From Poseidonibacter lekithochrous (GTDB lineage Bacteria; Campylobacterota; Campylobacteria; Campylobacterales; Arcobacteraceae), in the NCBI RefSeq assembly GCF_013283835.1, contig NZ_CP054052.1, positions 1,054,001 through 1,118,000 on the forward strand: a stretch of DNA of 64,000 nt, in the 5' to 3' direction. Under the pieces are notes generated by a model. It was not told where the DNA came from. It worked only from the letters and a program-made list of their open reading frames with translations, and did no database searches. Below, in pieces: positions 2,731 to 42,118 of this stretch; position 1 is the stretch's first letter, and every line of letters begins with the position of its first letter. A program made the position numbers and the translations under genes.

Positions 2731-5700
2731 ATGTCAGAAGTACAAAAACTGTTAACCGAATCAAGAAAAAAATTACTTGATTTAACATTGAGAAATTCAT
2801 TATTAAACTATAATTTAAAAAGAAAAAATAGAATTATTATTGTTGATGAATTACCTAATATTCTTTACAAACATCTACTAAATGGTAAGAAATTAAAAAT
2901 TGATTCAGTTCCTTATCCTGAGATTGAAGAGGAAGCAGAATCTAGTGATATTGATGAAACAAGTGGGTTTATAAATGCAAAAACTCATGCAAAAAATTTA
3001 GGTATATCTATTGATATTGAAGCACCAGAAATTGAAGAATCTAGTAGTAATATTGAAAATAGACATATTGATAATGCCATTCAAACCTTACATTATCCAG
3101 ATACTTTAGAAGGTATGTTGAGAAAAAGAAGAACTGATGCAAATACTGCTATTCAAGAAACTGGTTCAAACCTTTTGTATTTAGCAATAGGATTTCTAAA
3201 ATGGAAACAAAGTGTCAATTCTGAAAAAGAATTATATTCTCCTTTACTTTTAATACCTATTCAAATAGAAAGAGGGTCTCCTAATAGAGAAACAGGAGTT
3301 TATTCTTATAAAATTGAATATACTGGAGAAGATTTATTTTCAAATATATCCTTACAATATAAAATTAAAAATGAATTTGGTATAGAAATACCTGCTTTTG
3401 ATGAAGATTATACACCAGAAGACTACTTTAATAAGATTAATTCAATTTGTGAAAACAGACCTGAATTAATTGGAGTAAGCAGAATATTTGCCTTGGATTT
3501 CTTCCACTTTAGTAAGCTTTTGATGTATTTAGATTTAGATGCCTCTAATTGGCCTGAAAATAGAAGAATAGAAGATAATAAAATATTAGGAGAACTATCT
3601 GGTAATATTGTAAATGATTCGAGTGAGTTGTCTTTAGAAGAGGTTCCCTCACAAGAAACTGAAAAAATGGGTCTAGTAATGGATGCAGATGGTTCTCAAA
3701 GAGATGCAATTGCTCAAGTTTTAAAAGGACATAATCTTATAATTGAAGGACCTCCAGGAACTGGAAAAAGTCAAACAATTGCAAACCTTATTGCTGTTGC
3801 TCTATCAGAGGGGAAAAGTGTTCTTTTTGTTGCTGAAAAGCTTGTGGCCTTGGAAGTTGTAAAGAAAAGACTTGATTCTGTAGGATTGGGACATTTTATT
3901 CTTGAATTACACTCTCATAAATCTAATAAATCTAATTTTTATACATCTCTAAAAGATAGAGTAGAACTAGAAGTTTCTATTCCTCCAGAAAGATTAAAGC
4001 AAAATATAAATGAATTAGAAATAATAAAGTCTAATGTAAGTAATTATTTAGAGGTTCTACATACTCCACAAAAAGTTATTGAAAAATCAGCCTATGTAAT
4101 TTTTGGTGAAGTTCAAAATAGAGTAAAAGAAAAGTTTTTAGAATTATCTCCTTCTGAAGAACTTTTAAAATTAGATAATGAAACTTTTGAAAAAGTATCT
4201 ATTGAATTAAGTGCTCTAGAAAATTATATAAAAGAAGACTCGAATATTTTACAATCACCTTGGAATGGATTAATAACAAATAATGCTGTATCTTTGGATA
4301 GTGGTAAAATAATAGAACTTTTTAAGGAATATCAAAAATGTTTAAAGGACTTAGCTAACGCCTTTACTGATGAACAAATAAGAATATTACCTAAGAATAA
4401 AGATATACTAGAAACTTTAAATAAATTAGAAGACAAACGATTATTAACAGACTTTCCTAGTCATGGTGAACTGAATGTAATATCATCTTTAACTTTAGAC
4501 CAATTAGAAAAACTTTTTGAAGATATTGAAACATGCATTAAAGAATATAAATCTTTCAAGGGGCTTGATTTTGAAACAATTGATAATATCAATGAAATAA
4601 AGGAATTATCTAAAGAATTAAGAGGGTTTAAAGATATTGGTTTTTTTGGTAAGATATTTAATGGTGAATATAAGAGTTTAAGACGTAAGTTTAATCAAAT
4701 TTATATTCAAACCCATAAAAATGATCCTCAAATAATGATTGAAATACTTGATGAAAATAAAAGTTCTTTAGAAGACTATATTCAGAATATAAAAAATTTA
4801 ATGAACGATGGTGTAAATTCACTATTAAACAATCTAAAAGTTGAAGCTTTAAATGCAGATCTATTAAAAAATTTACCTAAAATATATGATGACCTAGAAG
4901 AACTTCTTAAATTTAAAGAAACATATATATGGAGAAAAGAATTACTTGATGTAGGTTTTGAGAATGAAATGATTGAACCTTTTTTAAGTGAGAAAGCTAG
5001 TGAATATTCAGTAAGTTTGAGAAGGCTAATAACAAATACAAAACCGTTTATTAATAAATTAAATAATATAAAAAATGAAATTAATCACTTTGGATTTATA
5101 AAAGAAAATATTTTTTTCTTAAATCAAAAAGAATTTGATAAGCAAGATAAAATATTAGAAAATAAATTAAAACACTCTGCCGAACTTGAAATGTGGATTG
5201 ATGTATCTAGACTCTTGAATACTTTAGAAAAATATCATTTTTCATCAATTATTGAATATGCAAGAAAAATGAAAATTGAAAATGATATTAAAAACCTTTC
5301 ACTATATGCATATTATAGAGAATGGGCTTATTATGTATTGAGATCAAATGATTTACTTTCTAAATTTAATAGTAAAATATATGAAACATATTTAAAAAGA
5401 TTTAGAGATATTGATTCCAAAATTGGTAGTTTATATGCAAAAGAACATGCATTACATCTTTCAAAAAATAAAGCAGCAGAAGGTAAAGGTGGAAGAGTAA
5501 AAGATAAAACAGAGATGCAGTTAATTAGAAATGAAATTAATAAGCAAATGAGACATATTCCTATTAGACAAACTATTAAAAAAGCACCAAATGCTATCAG
5601 ATCGTTAAAACCATGTTTTATGATGTCTCCATTGAGTGTGTCACAATTTATTGATCCTTCTCAAGAACCATTTGATTTAATGATTATGGATGAAGCAAGT

Positions 5701-7239
5701 CAAATTTTTCCAGAAGATTCATTAGGAGCAATTGCAAGAGCAAAACAAGTTGTAATTGTAGGCGATCCTAACCAGCTACCTCCTTCAAGCTTTTTTTCTA
5801 CTTCTAAAACTGATGAGGATGAAGAAGAAACAATAGCAACTACGGCAGAATCAATTTTAGACTTAACCTTAAGAGTTTATCCAAATGTTAAAAGACTTAA
5901 ATGGCACTATAGATCTCAACATGAAAGTCTTATTTCTTTTTCAAATCATCATTTTTACGATAGAGAGTTAATGATTTTTCCATCACCTAGTAAAGATGCT
6001 ACAGAAGTAGGTATTAATCGAAAGTATATTTCTAATGGCTTCTTTAAAAATCAGCAGAATATAAATGAGGCAGTTAGTATTTCAAATAGTATTGTAGAGT
6101 TTTTACAAACAAACTCAAAAGAGAGTTTAGGTGTAGTAACTATGAGTAAAAAGCAAGCAGAGTTAGTTGATAGACTTCTTGAAGAAAAAACAAAAGAAGA
6201 TTTAAATATTAGAAGATTAGTGGATTCAGGAATAAAAGAAGGAAAATTATTCATTAAAAACCTAGAAAATGTTCAAGGTGATGAAGCTGATGTTTTATTT
6301 ATTGGAACTACATATGGTCCTGATCCAGAGAGTAAAAAAGTTTATCAGAGATTTGGACCAATTAATGGAGACCATGGATGGCGAAGGATTAATGTTCTTA
6401 TTACAAGAGCAAAGAAGAGAATTGTAGTATTTACGTCTATGGTAAGTAATGATATTGGACATTCTGAAGGTAATAGAGGACGAATGGCTTTAAAGAACTA
6501 TTTACAATATATAGAGAGTGGACACGTTGAATCTGTACAGGGTACGACAACGGGAAAAGAACCTGATAGTCCTTTTGAAGAATCAGTTATTAGATATATT
6601 CAGTCTTTAGGGTTTATTGCACAACCACAAGTTGGAGTTGCAGGTTTTTATATTGATATTGGAATAATGGTAGAAGGTTCTTATAATTATATTCTAGGAA
6701 TAGAATGTGATGGAGCGGGGTATCATTCAAGTAAATCTGCAAGAGATAGAGATAGGATTAGACAAGAAATTTTAGAAGGAATGGGTTGGGAAATATATAG
6801 AATTTGGAGTACTGATTGGTTCAAACATAGAAAAAATGAAGAAGAGAGATTAAAGAAGAAGCTTATTGCGATAAAGCATAGAGCAATTTTAATTGATAAC
6901 GAAGAAACTATAGAAGTTCAAGTTAACGAAAGCATAGATATTCAGGTTGAAAAAATTATTGAAATAGAAGATACAAAAATAAAGGAATCTTCTACTAGTT
7001 CTTGTGAAAAGGTAAAAGAAGTTTTATATGCTTTTAGAAAAGAGAATATTGAGAAAAAATATAAAATTGATTCATCTTCAATTTTAAGTGATAGGATGAT
7101 TGACCTTCTATCAAGAACTCAACCAATAACTATAGATGAATTTAGATTAGAAATTCCTCTATATTTAAGAGAAAAAATTGATAGAAATCAAATGGAATTT
7201 GTTGATAAAATATTTGAGACTATAGAAGTGAATTCTTAA
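2731..7239 (+). CDS. DUF4011-helicase-Vsr-like nuclease defence protein
   Basis: A very large protein (1502 residues). The N-terminus (KLLDLTLRNSLLNY near residue 15) is typical of the DUF4011 domain. An SF1 helicase follows: Walker A GPPGTGKS at 340-347, then a long helical insertion of about 600 residues, Walker B DEAS at 987-990 followed by GDPNQLPPSS, and motifs V/VI near 1175-1235 (VQGDEAD, ITRAKKR). A Vsr/MTES_1575-like nuclease fold comes at about 1280-1375, with candidate catalytic residues in the IECDG strand (E1325, D1327). A C-terminal tail of about 100 residues is unassigned. This layout matches single-gene anti-phage proteins described as DUF4011-helicase-Vsr. The family assignment is from recognised motifs, and the defence role is inferred from the family and from hsdR next door. 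The ATG has an AGGA ribosome site 6-7 bases upstream. Confidence 0.85.
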   Translation: MSEVQKLLTESRKKLLDLTLRNSLLNYNLKRKNRIIIVDELPNILYKHLLNGKKLKIDSVPYPEIEEEAESSDIDETSGFINAKTHAKNLGISIDIEAPEIEESSSNIENRHIDNAIQTLHYPDTLEGMLRKRRTDANTAIQETGSNLLYLAIGFLKWKQSVNSEKELYSPLLLIPIQIERGSPNRETGVYSYKIEYTGEDLFSNISLQYKIKNEFGIEIPAFDEDYTPEDYFNKINSICENRPELIGVSRIFALDFFHFSKLLMYLDLDASNWPENRRIEDNKILGELSGNIVNDSSELSLEEVPSQETEKMGLVMDADGSQRDAIAQVLKGHNLIIEGPPGTGKSQTIANLIAVALSEGKSVLFVAEKLVALEVVKKRLDSVGLGHFILELHSHKSNKSNFYTSLKDRVELEVSIPPERLKQNINELEIIKSNVSNYLEVLHTPQKVIEKSAYVIFGEVQNRVKEKFLELSPSEELLKLDNETFEKVSIELSALENYIKEDSNILQSPWNGLITNNAVSLDSGKIIELFKEYQKCLKDLANAFTDEQIRILPKNKDILETLNKLEDKRLLTDFPSHGELNVISSLTLDQLEKLFEDIETCIKEYKSFKGLDFETIDNINEIKELSKELRGFKDIGFFGKIFNGEYKSLRRKFNQIYIQTHKNDPQIMIEILDENKSSLEDYIQNIKNLMNDGVNSLLNNLKVEALNADLLKNLPKIYDDLEELLKFKETYIWRKELLDVGFENEMIEPFLSEKASEYSVSLRRLITNTKPFINKLNNIKNEINHFGFIKENIFFLNQKEFDKQDKILENKLKHSAELEMWIDVSRLLNTLEKYHFSSIIEYARKMKIENDIKNLSLYAYYREWAYYVLRSNDLLSKFNSKIYETYLKRFRDIDSKIGSLYAKEHALHLSKNKAAEGKGGRVKDKTEMQLIRNEINKQMRHIPIRQTIKKAPNAIRSLKPCFMMSPLSVSQFIDPSQEPFDLMIMDEASQIFPEDSLGAIARAKQVVIVGDPNQLPPSSFFSTSKTDEDEEETIATTAESILDLTLRVYPNVKRLKWHYRSQHESLISFSNHHFYDRELMIFPSPSKDATEVGINRKYISNGFFKNQQNINEAVSISNSIVEFLQTNSKESLGVVTMSKKQAELVDRLLEEKTKEDLNIRRLVDSGIKEGKLFIKNLENVQGDEADVLFIGTTYGPDPESKKVYQRFGPINGDHGWRRINVLITRAKKRIVVFTSMVSNDIGHSEGNRGRMALKNYLQYIESGHVESVQGTTTGKEPDSPFEESVIRYIQSLGFIAQPQVGVAGFYIDIGIMVEGSYNYILGIECDGAGYHSSKSARDRDRIRQEILEGMGWEIYRIWSTDWFKHRKNEEERLKKKLIAIKHRAILIDNEETIEVQVNESIDIQVEKIIEIEDTKIKESSTSSCEKVKEVLYAFRKENIEKKYKIDSSSILSDRMIDLLSRTQPITIDEFRLEIPLYLREKIDRNQMEFVDKIFETIEVNS

Positions 7240-40664: not shown

Positions 40665-41753
40665 GTGTTAGATAATATTCAATCAAGAATCTCAAAAGTC
40701 AAAGCAAGTCTAGTAATAGAGCAACCTTACTTTGGCTCTATAGCTTCTACTTTAAAACCTGTATTAAATGAAGATATAAAAACTTTTTTATCTACAGCTA
40801 AAAACTTCGAATATAATGATGATTATATTAATAGTCTAAGCAATGAAGAATTAGGTTTTATTCTTACAAATTCTGCAATGCACCAAGTGTTTTTACATGA
40901 AGCACGAATTGATTCAAGAATGCAATGGCTTTGGGTTTTAGCTACTGATTATGCTATTAATTGTTTACTTGTGAATAATGGTTTAGAATTACCTGAACAT
41001 GTGAACTATGATGAACGATTTGATGATATGAGTGCAGAAGCTATATATGCAAGTTTAGAGAATGAAATAGATGATGATAAACATAGCCCTGAGCAAGTAT
41101 CTCAAATAAAGTTTGAAGAACATCAAGAACAAGAAATTGATAATGATGAATCAATACAAGATATGCATGAGCAGTTATTAAATAAAGCTAAACTGCAAGG
41201 GGATTTGCCTTTAGGAATTGAAATACTTGTACCTAATATCTTTGAAGGTAAAATATCTTGGGAAGATGAACTATATAATGTGATTGAACAATCAATTAGA
41301 TTTGATTATAGATTACTTCCTCCAAATAAAAGATATATCTCACAAGGAATAGCACTCCCAGCTCTTAGTGGAAGCAAAGCTAAGATTGTAATAGCAATAG
41401 ATAGTTCAGGTTCTGTTGATGGTTCTTTATTAGCTAAGTTTTTAGCTGAGGTAGAATCTATTATGAATACCTATGAAAATTTTGAAATAGATTTATTAGT
41501 AGCTGATGCTAAAGTACATGAACATCATATTTTATATCCAGGTGATGAACTATCTTACACTCTAAAAGGTGGAGGTGGTACAAACTTTGAAAATACCTTT
41601 GAATATATAAATGAAAATATTGATGAGGTAAATCTATTGTTATACTTTACAGATGGTTTTGGGAAGTTTCCAGAAGATGAAGCTTTTTTTGAAACAGTTT
41701 GGGTTCTAAGTGATGAAATAGAAGTTCCTTTCGGAAGAACTATTTTTCTTTAA
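40665..41753 (+). CDS. VWA-like protein (DUF2201 type)
   Basis: 362 residues, GTG start three bases after the ATPase stop. The C-terminal VWA-like domain has a MIDAS motif DSSGS at 246-250, with further acidic loops (GGGGTNF, FTDGFG). The N-terminal DUF2201-type domain would normally carry HExxH; here the matching stretch reads HQVFLH (73-78), so the metallopeptidase site is probably lost while the DYAIN element survives. With the MoxR ATPase it forms a classic MoxR-VWA pair. Confidence 0.88.
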   Translation: MLDNIQSRISKVKASLVIEQPYFGSIASTLKPVLNEDIKTFLSTAKNFEYNDDYINSLSNEELGFILTNSAMHQVFLHEARIDSRMQWLWVLATDYAINCLLVNNGLELPEHVNYDERFDDMSAEAIYASLENEIDDDKHSPEQVSQIKFEEHQEQEIDNDESIQDMHEQLLNKAKLQGDLPLGIEILVPNIFEGKISWEDELYNVIEQSIRFDYRLLPPNKRYISQGIALPALSGSKAKIVIAIDSSGSVDGSLLAKFLAEVESIMNTYENFEIDLLVADAKVHEHHILYPGDELSYTLKGGGGTNFENTFEYINENIDEVNLLLYFTDGFGKFPEDEAFFETVWVLSDEIEVPFGRTIFL

Positions 41754-41826: not shown

Positions 41827-41928
41827 TCAAACAAGAATTCCTGCATATAAATTCATTGAAACAATTAGCATAATTGAAAAAGCAGTTAATAAAAGGCTTT
41901 TTTTTATTCCTTGTTTAAATGTTCTCAT
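41827..41928 (-). CDS. 33-residue membrane or signal-like peptide under riboswitch control
   Basis: On the minus strand, AGAGGAG followed by ATTAAAA precedes an ATG that opens a 33-codon frame ending in TGA. The peptide begins MRTFKQGIKKSLLL, has a hydrophobic core of about 14 residues (LLLTAFSIMLIVSM) and ends NLYAGILV. It could be a single-span small membrane protein or a signal peptide cleaved after LYA. It is the only coding sequence downstream of the second c-di-GMP riboswitch, which argues that it is real. No homologue is known to me. Confidence 0.6.
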   Translation of the reverse strand: MRTFKQGIKKSLLLTAFSIMLIVSMNLYAGILV

Positions 41929-42000
41929 TTTTAATCTCCTCTAAAATATAAAGAACTATCCATACGAAGAGATTCTCTATAATAAATATTGATTAGATTA

Positions 42001-42118
42001 GATTAAAATGCCCAATTGCAGTGTGTAAGTAAAAATAGTGTGCAATCCGGCTATCTTAAATCTAAGACCCGTGACTTTCCGTCCCTATCTCACAATAGGT
42101 TTGGCTATATTCATTATA
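42001..42118 (-). promoter_or_regulatory. c-di-GMP-I (GEMM) riboswitch, copy 2, with promoter
   Basis: 67 bases (42107-42041 on the minus strand) are identical to copy 1 at 37833-37767 and include the whole aptamer. The expression platform is also kept: GCAATTGGGC (complement at 42010-42019) can pair with GCCGGATTGC, followed by a short T-run, with a different loop between. A minus-strand -10 TATAAT at 42118-42113 would start transcription right at the aptamer's first base. The controlled gene is the 33-residue peptide. Confidence 0.88.

Follow-up and report, generated by a model that had tools for sequence, protein, structure and literature searches.

A c-di-GMP-I riboswitch leading to a single 33-codon open reading frame in Poseidonibacter lekithochrous

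Known c-di-GMP riboswitch systems and the layout of the locus

Known riboswitches of the c-di-GMP-I class (GEMM-I) mostly control motility, pilus, matrix or enzyme genes. A diverse set of controlled genes, motility and biofilm genes among them, is described in a review of c-di-GMP riboswitches (PMC7266159). In Clostridioides difficile, the riboswitches Cdi1_4 and Cdi1_5 adjoin type I toxin-antitoxin pairs; in those loci the riboswitch precedes the antitoxin RNA, which is switched off by c-di-GMP (PMC7699646). The locus presented here lies in a stretch of 64,000 nucleotides from P. lekithochrous (the window; its genome is named G000 below). It resembles the c-di-GMP-I riboswitches (RF01051) in aptamer sequence and structure and in its 5′ leader position, and it shares with Cdi1_4 and Cdi1_5 the location of such a riboswitch beside a gene for a small, putative membrane peptide. 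However, its entire output is one open reading frame (ORF) of 33 codons, in contrast to the known GEMM-I outputs, and the riboswitch leads to the mRNA of the peptide, whereas an antisense RNA as in C. difficile is not evident. Other riboswitch-led small membrane proteins of Arcobacteraceae have in common with it the aptamer class and a short hydrophobic product, often encoded alone, but they are longer (55-80 aa) and have no sequence similarity to the 33-aa peptide. Literature searches for c-di-GMP riboswitches of Arcobacter together with this peptide returned no paper.

A preliminary description of this DNA, made from its letters alone, had proposed an aptamer followed by one micro-ORF and a hairpin, and this arrangement was confirmed as a whole, with a convergent gene beyond the terminator. 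The unit lies on the minus strand, where the ORF runs from an ATG at 41928 to a stop at 41827. No co-directional gene follows: the next element is a hairpin of 14 bp (41792-41761, minus strand), and then comes the end of a convergent VWA-like/DUF2201 gene (40665-41753, plus strand; Pfam and synteny). The 33-codon ORF is therefore the sole candidate gene of the riboswitch. The hairpin is terminator-like, as had been described, and has a folding energy of -16.9 kcal/mol (z -6.7); as a bidirectional terminator it separates the peptide gene from the convergent gene, and its U-tail on the minus strand is poor. Upstream lies a gene for a TetR-family regulator (42837-42196, minus strand; Pfam), which has orthologs in 15 of 104 genomes and, like the DUF2201 gene, is regarded as context only.

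G000 contains three c-di-GMP-I aptamers, including the one upstream of the 33-codon ORF. One of the other two precedes a Tad-type pilin; the second, near-identical to that of the 33-aa unit, lies 4.3 kb away in the window (37841-37764, minus strand) and is followed by a DUF1800-DUF1501 gene pair (37695-34746, minus strand). The leader of this pair is a paralog of the leader of the 33-aa unit, 87% alike over 113 nt, and has a second hairpin (CCUACUUU/AAAGUAGG) which covers part of the ribosome site.

Among 104 Arcobacteraceae genomes, 19 have c-di-GMP-I aptamers and three have the aptamer together with the 33-aa-type ORF as an orthologous unit: G000, its sister species Arcobacter sp. UBA7394 of the same genus (G009) and a member of another genus (G011). 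The convergent DUF2201 gene and the tetR gene are common to all three. A scan of genome contigs with the aptamer pattern found only Arcobacter sp. UBA7394. A plasmid or phage origin was considered and rejected, with a single plasmid match of 51 nt, located inside the aptamer, and no phage match.

Aptamer, promoter and expression platform

The aptamer (42114-42037, minus strand), which had been described as complete, is matched as such by Rfam cmscan, scoring 61.3 bits against RF01051 at a cut-off of 35. Its orthologs reach 62.6 and 61.3 bits, so that membership in the c-di-GMP-I class is given by the score for sequence and structure. The 68-nt core of the aptamer is identical in the three genomes, and hence across two genera. 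The neighbouring aptamer has the same core as that of the 33-aa unit, and its cmscan alignment shows a G retained at model position 11. We take this position to be the ligand-contacting G20, where a G marks sensing of c-di-GMP rather than cGAMP. For the c-di-GMP-I-GGC subclass (RF03167), with a threshold of 59 bits, the scores were 59.3 in the window and 57.8 and 55.6 in the orthologs.

The promoter region (42135-42113, minus strand), conserved in the three orthologs, offers two candidate -10 elements. The -10 of its own with which the riboswitch had been credited is present as TATAAT (42118-42113), but this sequence reaches the aptamer's 5′ edge. The second candidate, TAAAAT at 42135-42130, aligns with a TATAAT of G011. 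No full sigma-70 promoter was found in a consensus scan. In G009, an unrelated divergent gene sits between the tetR gene and the riboswitch, and since this gene parts the two, the riboswitch likely has its own promoter; in G009 this is very probably the case.

Behind the aptamer, folds place a hairpin (42063-42000, minus strand) in which the 3′ half of the aptamer pairs with UGCAAUUGGGCAUUUUAAUCU. The strand that closes the aptamer is the same strand that is used by this anti-aptamer hairpin. In the preliminary description the element was called a terminator. The hairpin is indeed there and conserved, and its 3′ arm is unchanged between G000 and G009, but it is an anti-aptamer hairpin with a loop of 20 nt and the weak tail AUUUUAAU, and as expression platform a putative weak intrinsic terminator. 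Similar anti-aptamer hairpins follow other aptamers of Arcobacteraceae, some of them with clear U-runs (L002, L017, L029). Holding the aptamer apart costs 3.6-8.7 kcal/mol in the folds.

Further downstream, a spacer hairpin (41980-41948, minus strand) precedes the ribosome site, and according to alignment and folds its pairing is retained in relatives while the sequence changes. The Shine-Dalgarno sequence AGGAG (41940-41936, minus strand) is located 7 nt before the ATG. It is predicted to be partly sequestered by the upstream AUUUUAAUCUAAUCUA, and a long stem, AUUUUAAUC/GAUUAAAAU, appears to mask the ribosome site in both states of the aptamer. Switching at the level of translation was rejected, as the ribosome site is predicted to be about equally accessible in either state; since this access does not depend on the state of the aptamer, control of transcription is favoured. 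The simplest reading of these folds would be a control at transcription level which is ON with c-di-GMP. As the tail is weak and a stem appears to lie over the ribosome site whichever state the aptamer is in, translation may depend on another factor or remain at a low level.

The 33-residue peptide and competing explanations

The product, MRTFKQGIKKSLLLTAFSIMLIVSMNLYAGILV, has a basic N-terminus and a hydrophobic segment at residues about 11-25, and no match to known small-protein families was obtained with Pfam profiles. The preliminary description spoke of a single tiny ORF with a good ribosome site and a hydrophobic core, and this combination is hardly expected by chance. The stretch between the aptamer and the DUF2201 gene was dinucleotide-shuffled 20,000 times. 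ORFs of 33 codons or more arose in 25% of the shuffles, together with an AGGAG at the right distance in 0.07%, and with a hydrophobic core in addition in 0.01%. On these frequencies a chance ORF was ruled out.

In the case of G009, 32 of 33 residues are identical to G000. The two ORFs differ by 2 of 102 nucleotides (one synonymous change, one Leu/Ile) without gaps, whereas the non-coding DNA of the spacer and behind the stop codon has 8 substitutions in 74 positions and 6 gap columns (Fisher p = 0.018 against the ORF); the ribosome-site region is the same in both. The search for the peptide behind GEMM aptamers of other Arcobacteraceae, suggested in the preliminary description, thus succeeded for G009 and, with respect to the N-terminal part, for G011. 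Here the start, the frame (with one insertion of 3 nt) and the hydrophobic segment are kept despite a nucleotide change of about 33%, and the C-terminus has diverged (40 aa, as compared to 33 aa in G000). Loss of the frame in relatives had been named, along with missing ribosome occupancy, as what would speak against a peptide; the frame is open in all three genomes, but the pN/pS of 0.58 between G000 and G011 over the first 28 codons is not significant alone. In a neutral simulation at the same divergence, an open frame with such hydrophobicity was kept in about 2% of cases (0.17 x 0.11). The conserved part is the predicted N-terminal helix, charged as well as hydrophobic, and the comparison of the three sequences favours selection on this candidate membrane segment.

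Of the two locations proposed before, membrane or periplasm, the membrane fits the sequence of the peptide. For the periplasm the support is weak: the possible signal-peptidase site LYA/G of G000 (IYA/G in G009; cleavage at the slash) has no in-frame counterpart in G011. A conserved cleavage site, as expected of a Sec-exported peptide, was accordingly not observed.

Taken together, we consider it only slightly more probable than its opposite that the locus is a self-contained regulon of one gene, in which a transcription riboswitch turned ON by c-di-GMP expresses a small membrane-anchored peptide. The transcript would start directly upstream of the aptamer. In the absence of c-di-GMP, the 3′ half of the aptamer would be taken up by the anti-aptamer hairpin downstream, where most transcripts would end; with c-di-GMP bound, the aptamer would be held together, the hairpin blocked, and RNA polymerase would continue. 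We infer that the sole product is then translated. This peptide of 33 residues, basic at its start and with a single hydrophobic helix, would be inserted into the inner membrane and remain there with its N-terminal start in the cytoplasm. It might act as a small accessory or regulatory factor in the c-di-GMP (attached or biofilm) state. Against this reading we count the weak terminator tail, the predicted pairing of most of the ribosome site in either state, the presence of the unit in just three species, the deviating C-terminus and length in G011, the pN/pS that is not significant alone and the only two substitutions that part G000 from G009.

The main rival, which we regard as unlikely but serious, is a remnant: the riboswitch would formerly have controlled a larger exported protein, of which a signal peptide was left that is expressed and functionless. 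Indeed, the peptide resembles a bare signal peptide, with its basic start, hydrophobic core, LYA/G and stop, and the gene controlled by its paralogous leader, at a distance of 4.3 kb, encodes an exported DUF1800 protein of full length. In G011, moreover, a shifted frame reads STYAYAKK, a typical end of a signal peptide, as after a frameshift. However, a longer gene to which such a signal peptide could belong was found at this locus in none of the relatives, and G113 has the neighbouring genes without the unit. A functionless remnant is also at odds with an ORF that is conserved better than its flanks, a frame and a hydrophobicity that are retained in a second genus, and an aptamer core that is identical in all three species.

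Cleavage by signal peptidase after LYA, by which either a short peptide or the cut-off signal peptide would be released to act as a signal, is improbable. G000 and G009 have the possible site, with an A in position -1 and an L or I in position -3, but the mature part would be merely GILV, and G011 has no in-frame site. Slightly less probable still is that the RNA is the output, an alternative raised in the preliminary description, by which the locus would encode a small RNA controlled by c-di-GMP with an incidental ORF. A transcript of merely about 350 nt, its structured leader and the conserved spacer hairpin would suit such an RNA, yet the ribosome site and ORF are well beyond chance, the substitutions in the ORF spare the frame, and the ORF is more conserved than the non-coding flanks. 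We give little weight to an antisense control, in which read-through past the weak terminator would silence the convergent moxR-DUF2201 operon; the genes are convergent and the terminator tail on the minus strand is weak, but the 14-bp hairpin of -16.9 kcal/mol stands in between and the conservation of the ORF would be left unexplained. A type I toxin with an antisense antitoxin under c-di-GMP control, as the small basic hydrophobic peptide and its largely sequestered ribosome site (predicted) might suggest, is the least probable of all, since a consensus scan (a weak test) found no antisense promoter and the A-run/T-run hairpin within the ORF is a consequence of Lys and Leu codons.

Small proteins behind c-di-GMP-I aptamers in Arcobacteraceae

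Two further families of small proteins, for neither of which Pfam or NCBIfam gave a match above cut-off, occur behind c-di-GMP-I aptamers. A family of 55-60 aa, marked by a WSF.K motif and by a membrane segment at the C-terminus, is present in 4 of 104 genomes from three genera (L008 1638-1805, L009 1639-1812, L029 1644-1823, L050 1643-1825, in riboswitch orientation). All four members directly follow an aptamer, the family was never found elsewhere, and in G010 a strong terminator comes immediately after the gene. As an example of a membrane micro-protein to which a riboswitch is dedicated, this family is more convincing than the 33-aa peptide. A second family of 73-80 aa, apparently a membrane protein with two helices, is confined to seven genomes of one genus and follows an aptamer in six of them (L018, L052-L055, L157); the exception is L158 (336-570), the gene of G050 having no recognisable aptamer. 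In relatives, unrelated small membrane proteins occupy the same place behind c-di-GMP-I aptamers, which also speaks for the reading of the single locus given above. The riboswitch dedicated to a micro-protein is therefore, as judged from these genomes, a recurring design in Arcobacteraceae, with the 33-aa peptide as its shortest case. The interpretation given in the preliminary description, an undescribed effector peptide, stands in so far as the aptamer serves one conserved, membrane-compatible micro-ORF. The word undescribed was too broad: it applies to the 33-aa sequence itself, but in Arcobacteraceae it is common for c-di-GMP riboswitches to be followed by small membrane proteins.

Tad-type pilins of 62-65 aa are also found behind c-di-GMP-I riboswitches in several genera (L003, L011, L025, L026, L051, L057), in G009 with a subsequent gene resembling a prepilin peptidase, and a direct control of Tad pili by c-di-GMP is likely in Arcobacteraceae. 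In genus g11 (L014, L016, L017), the aptamer is followed by small proteins which share an N-terminal membrane segment followed by a similar stretch (such as F.N.TG..), two of them in a row at L017. Three aptamers (L012, L022, L059) lie within 455 nt on contig 18 of G047 (5383-5837), two in tandem before an ORF of 133 aa and one divergent before a flagellin-like ORF.

As a tentative generalization, which we hold with less confidence than the reading of the single locus, c-di-GMP riboswitches of Arcobacteraceae might be dedicated on-switches for several unrelated inner-membrane micro-proteins, the 33-aa peptide being the smallest. Such regulons are easily overlooked, because the gene is shorter than the usual annotation length. 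Riboswitch targets give an indication of c-di-GMP biology, and the outputs of c-di-GMP are little known in such bacteria. If true, this would represent an undescribed output layer, in which the second messenger directly sets the amounts of membrane effector peptides, and both the 33-residue peptide and the proteins of 55-80 residues that correspond to it in other genera would be testable small effectors of the sessile state.
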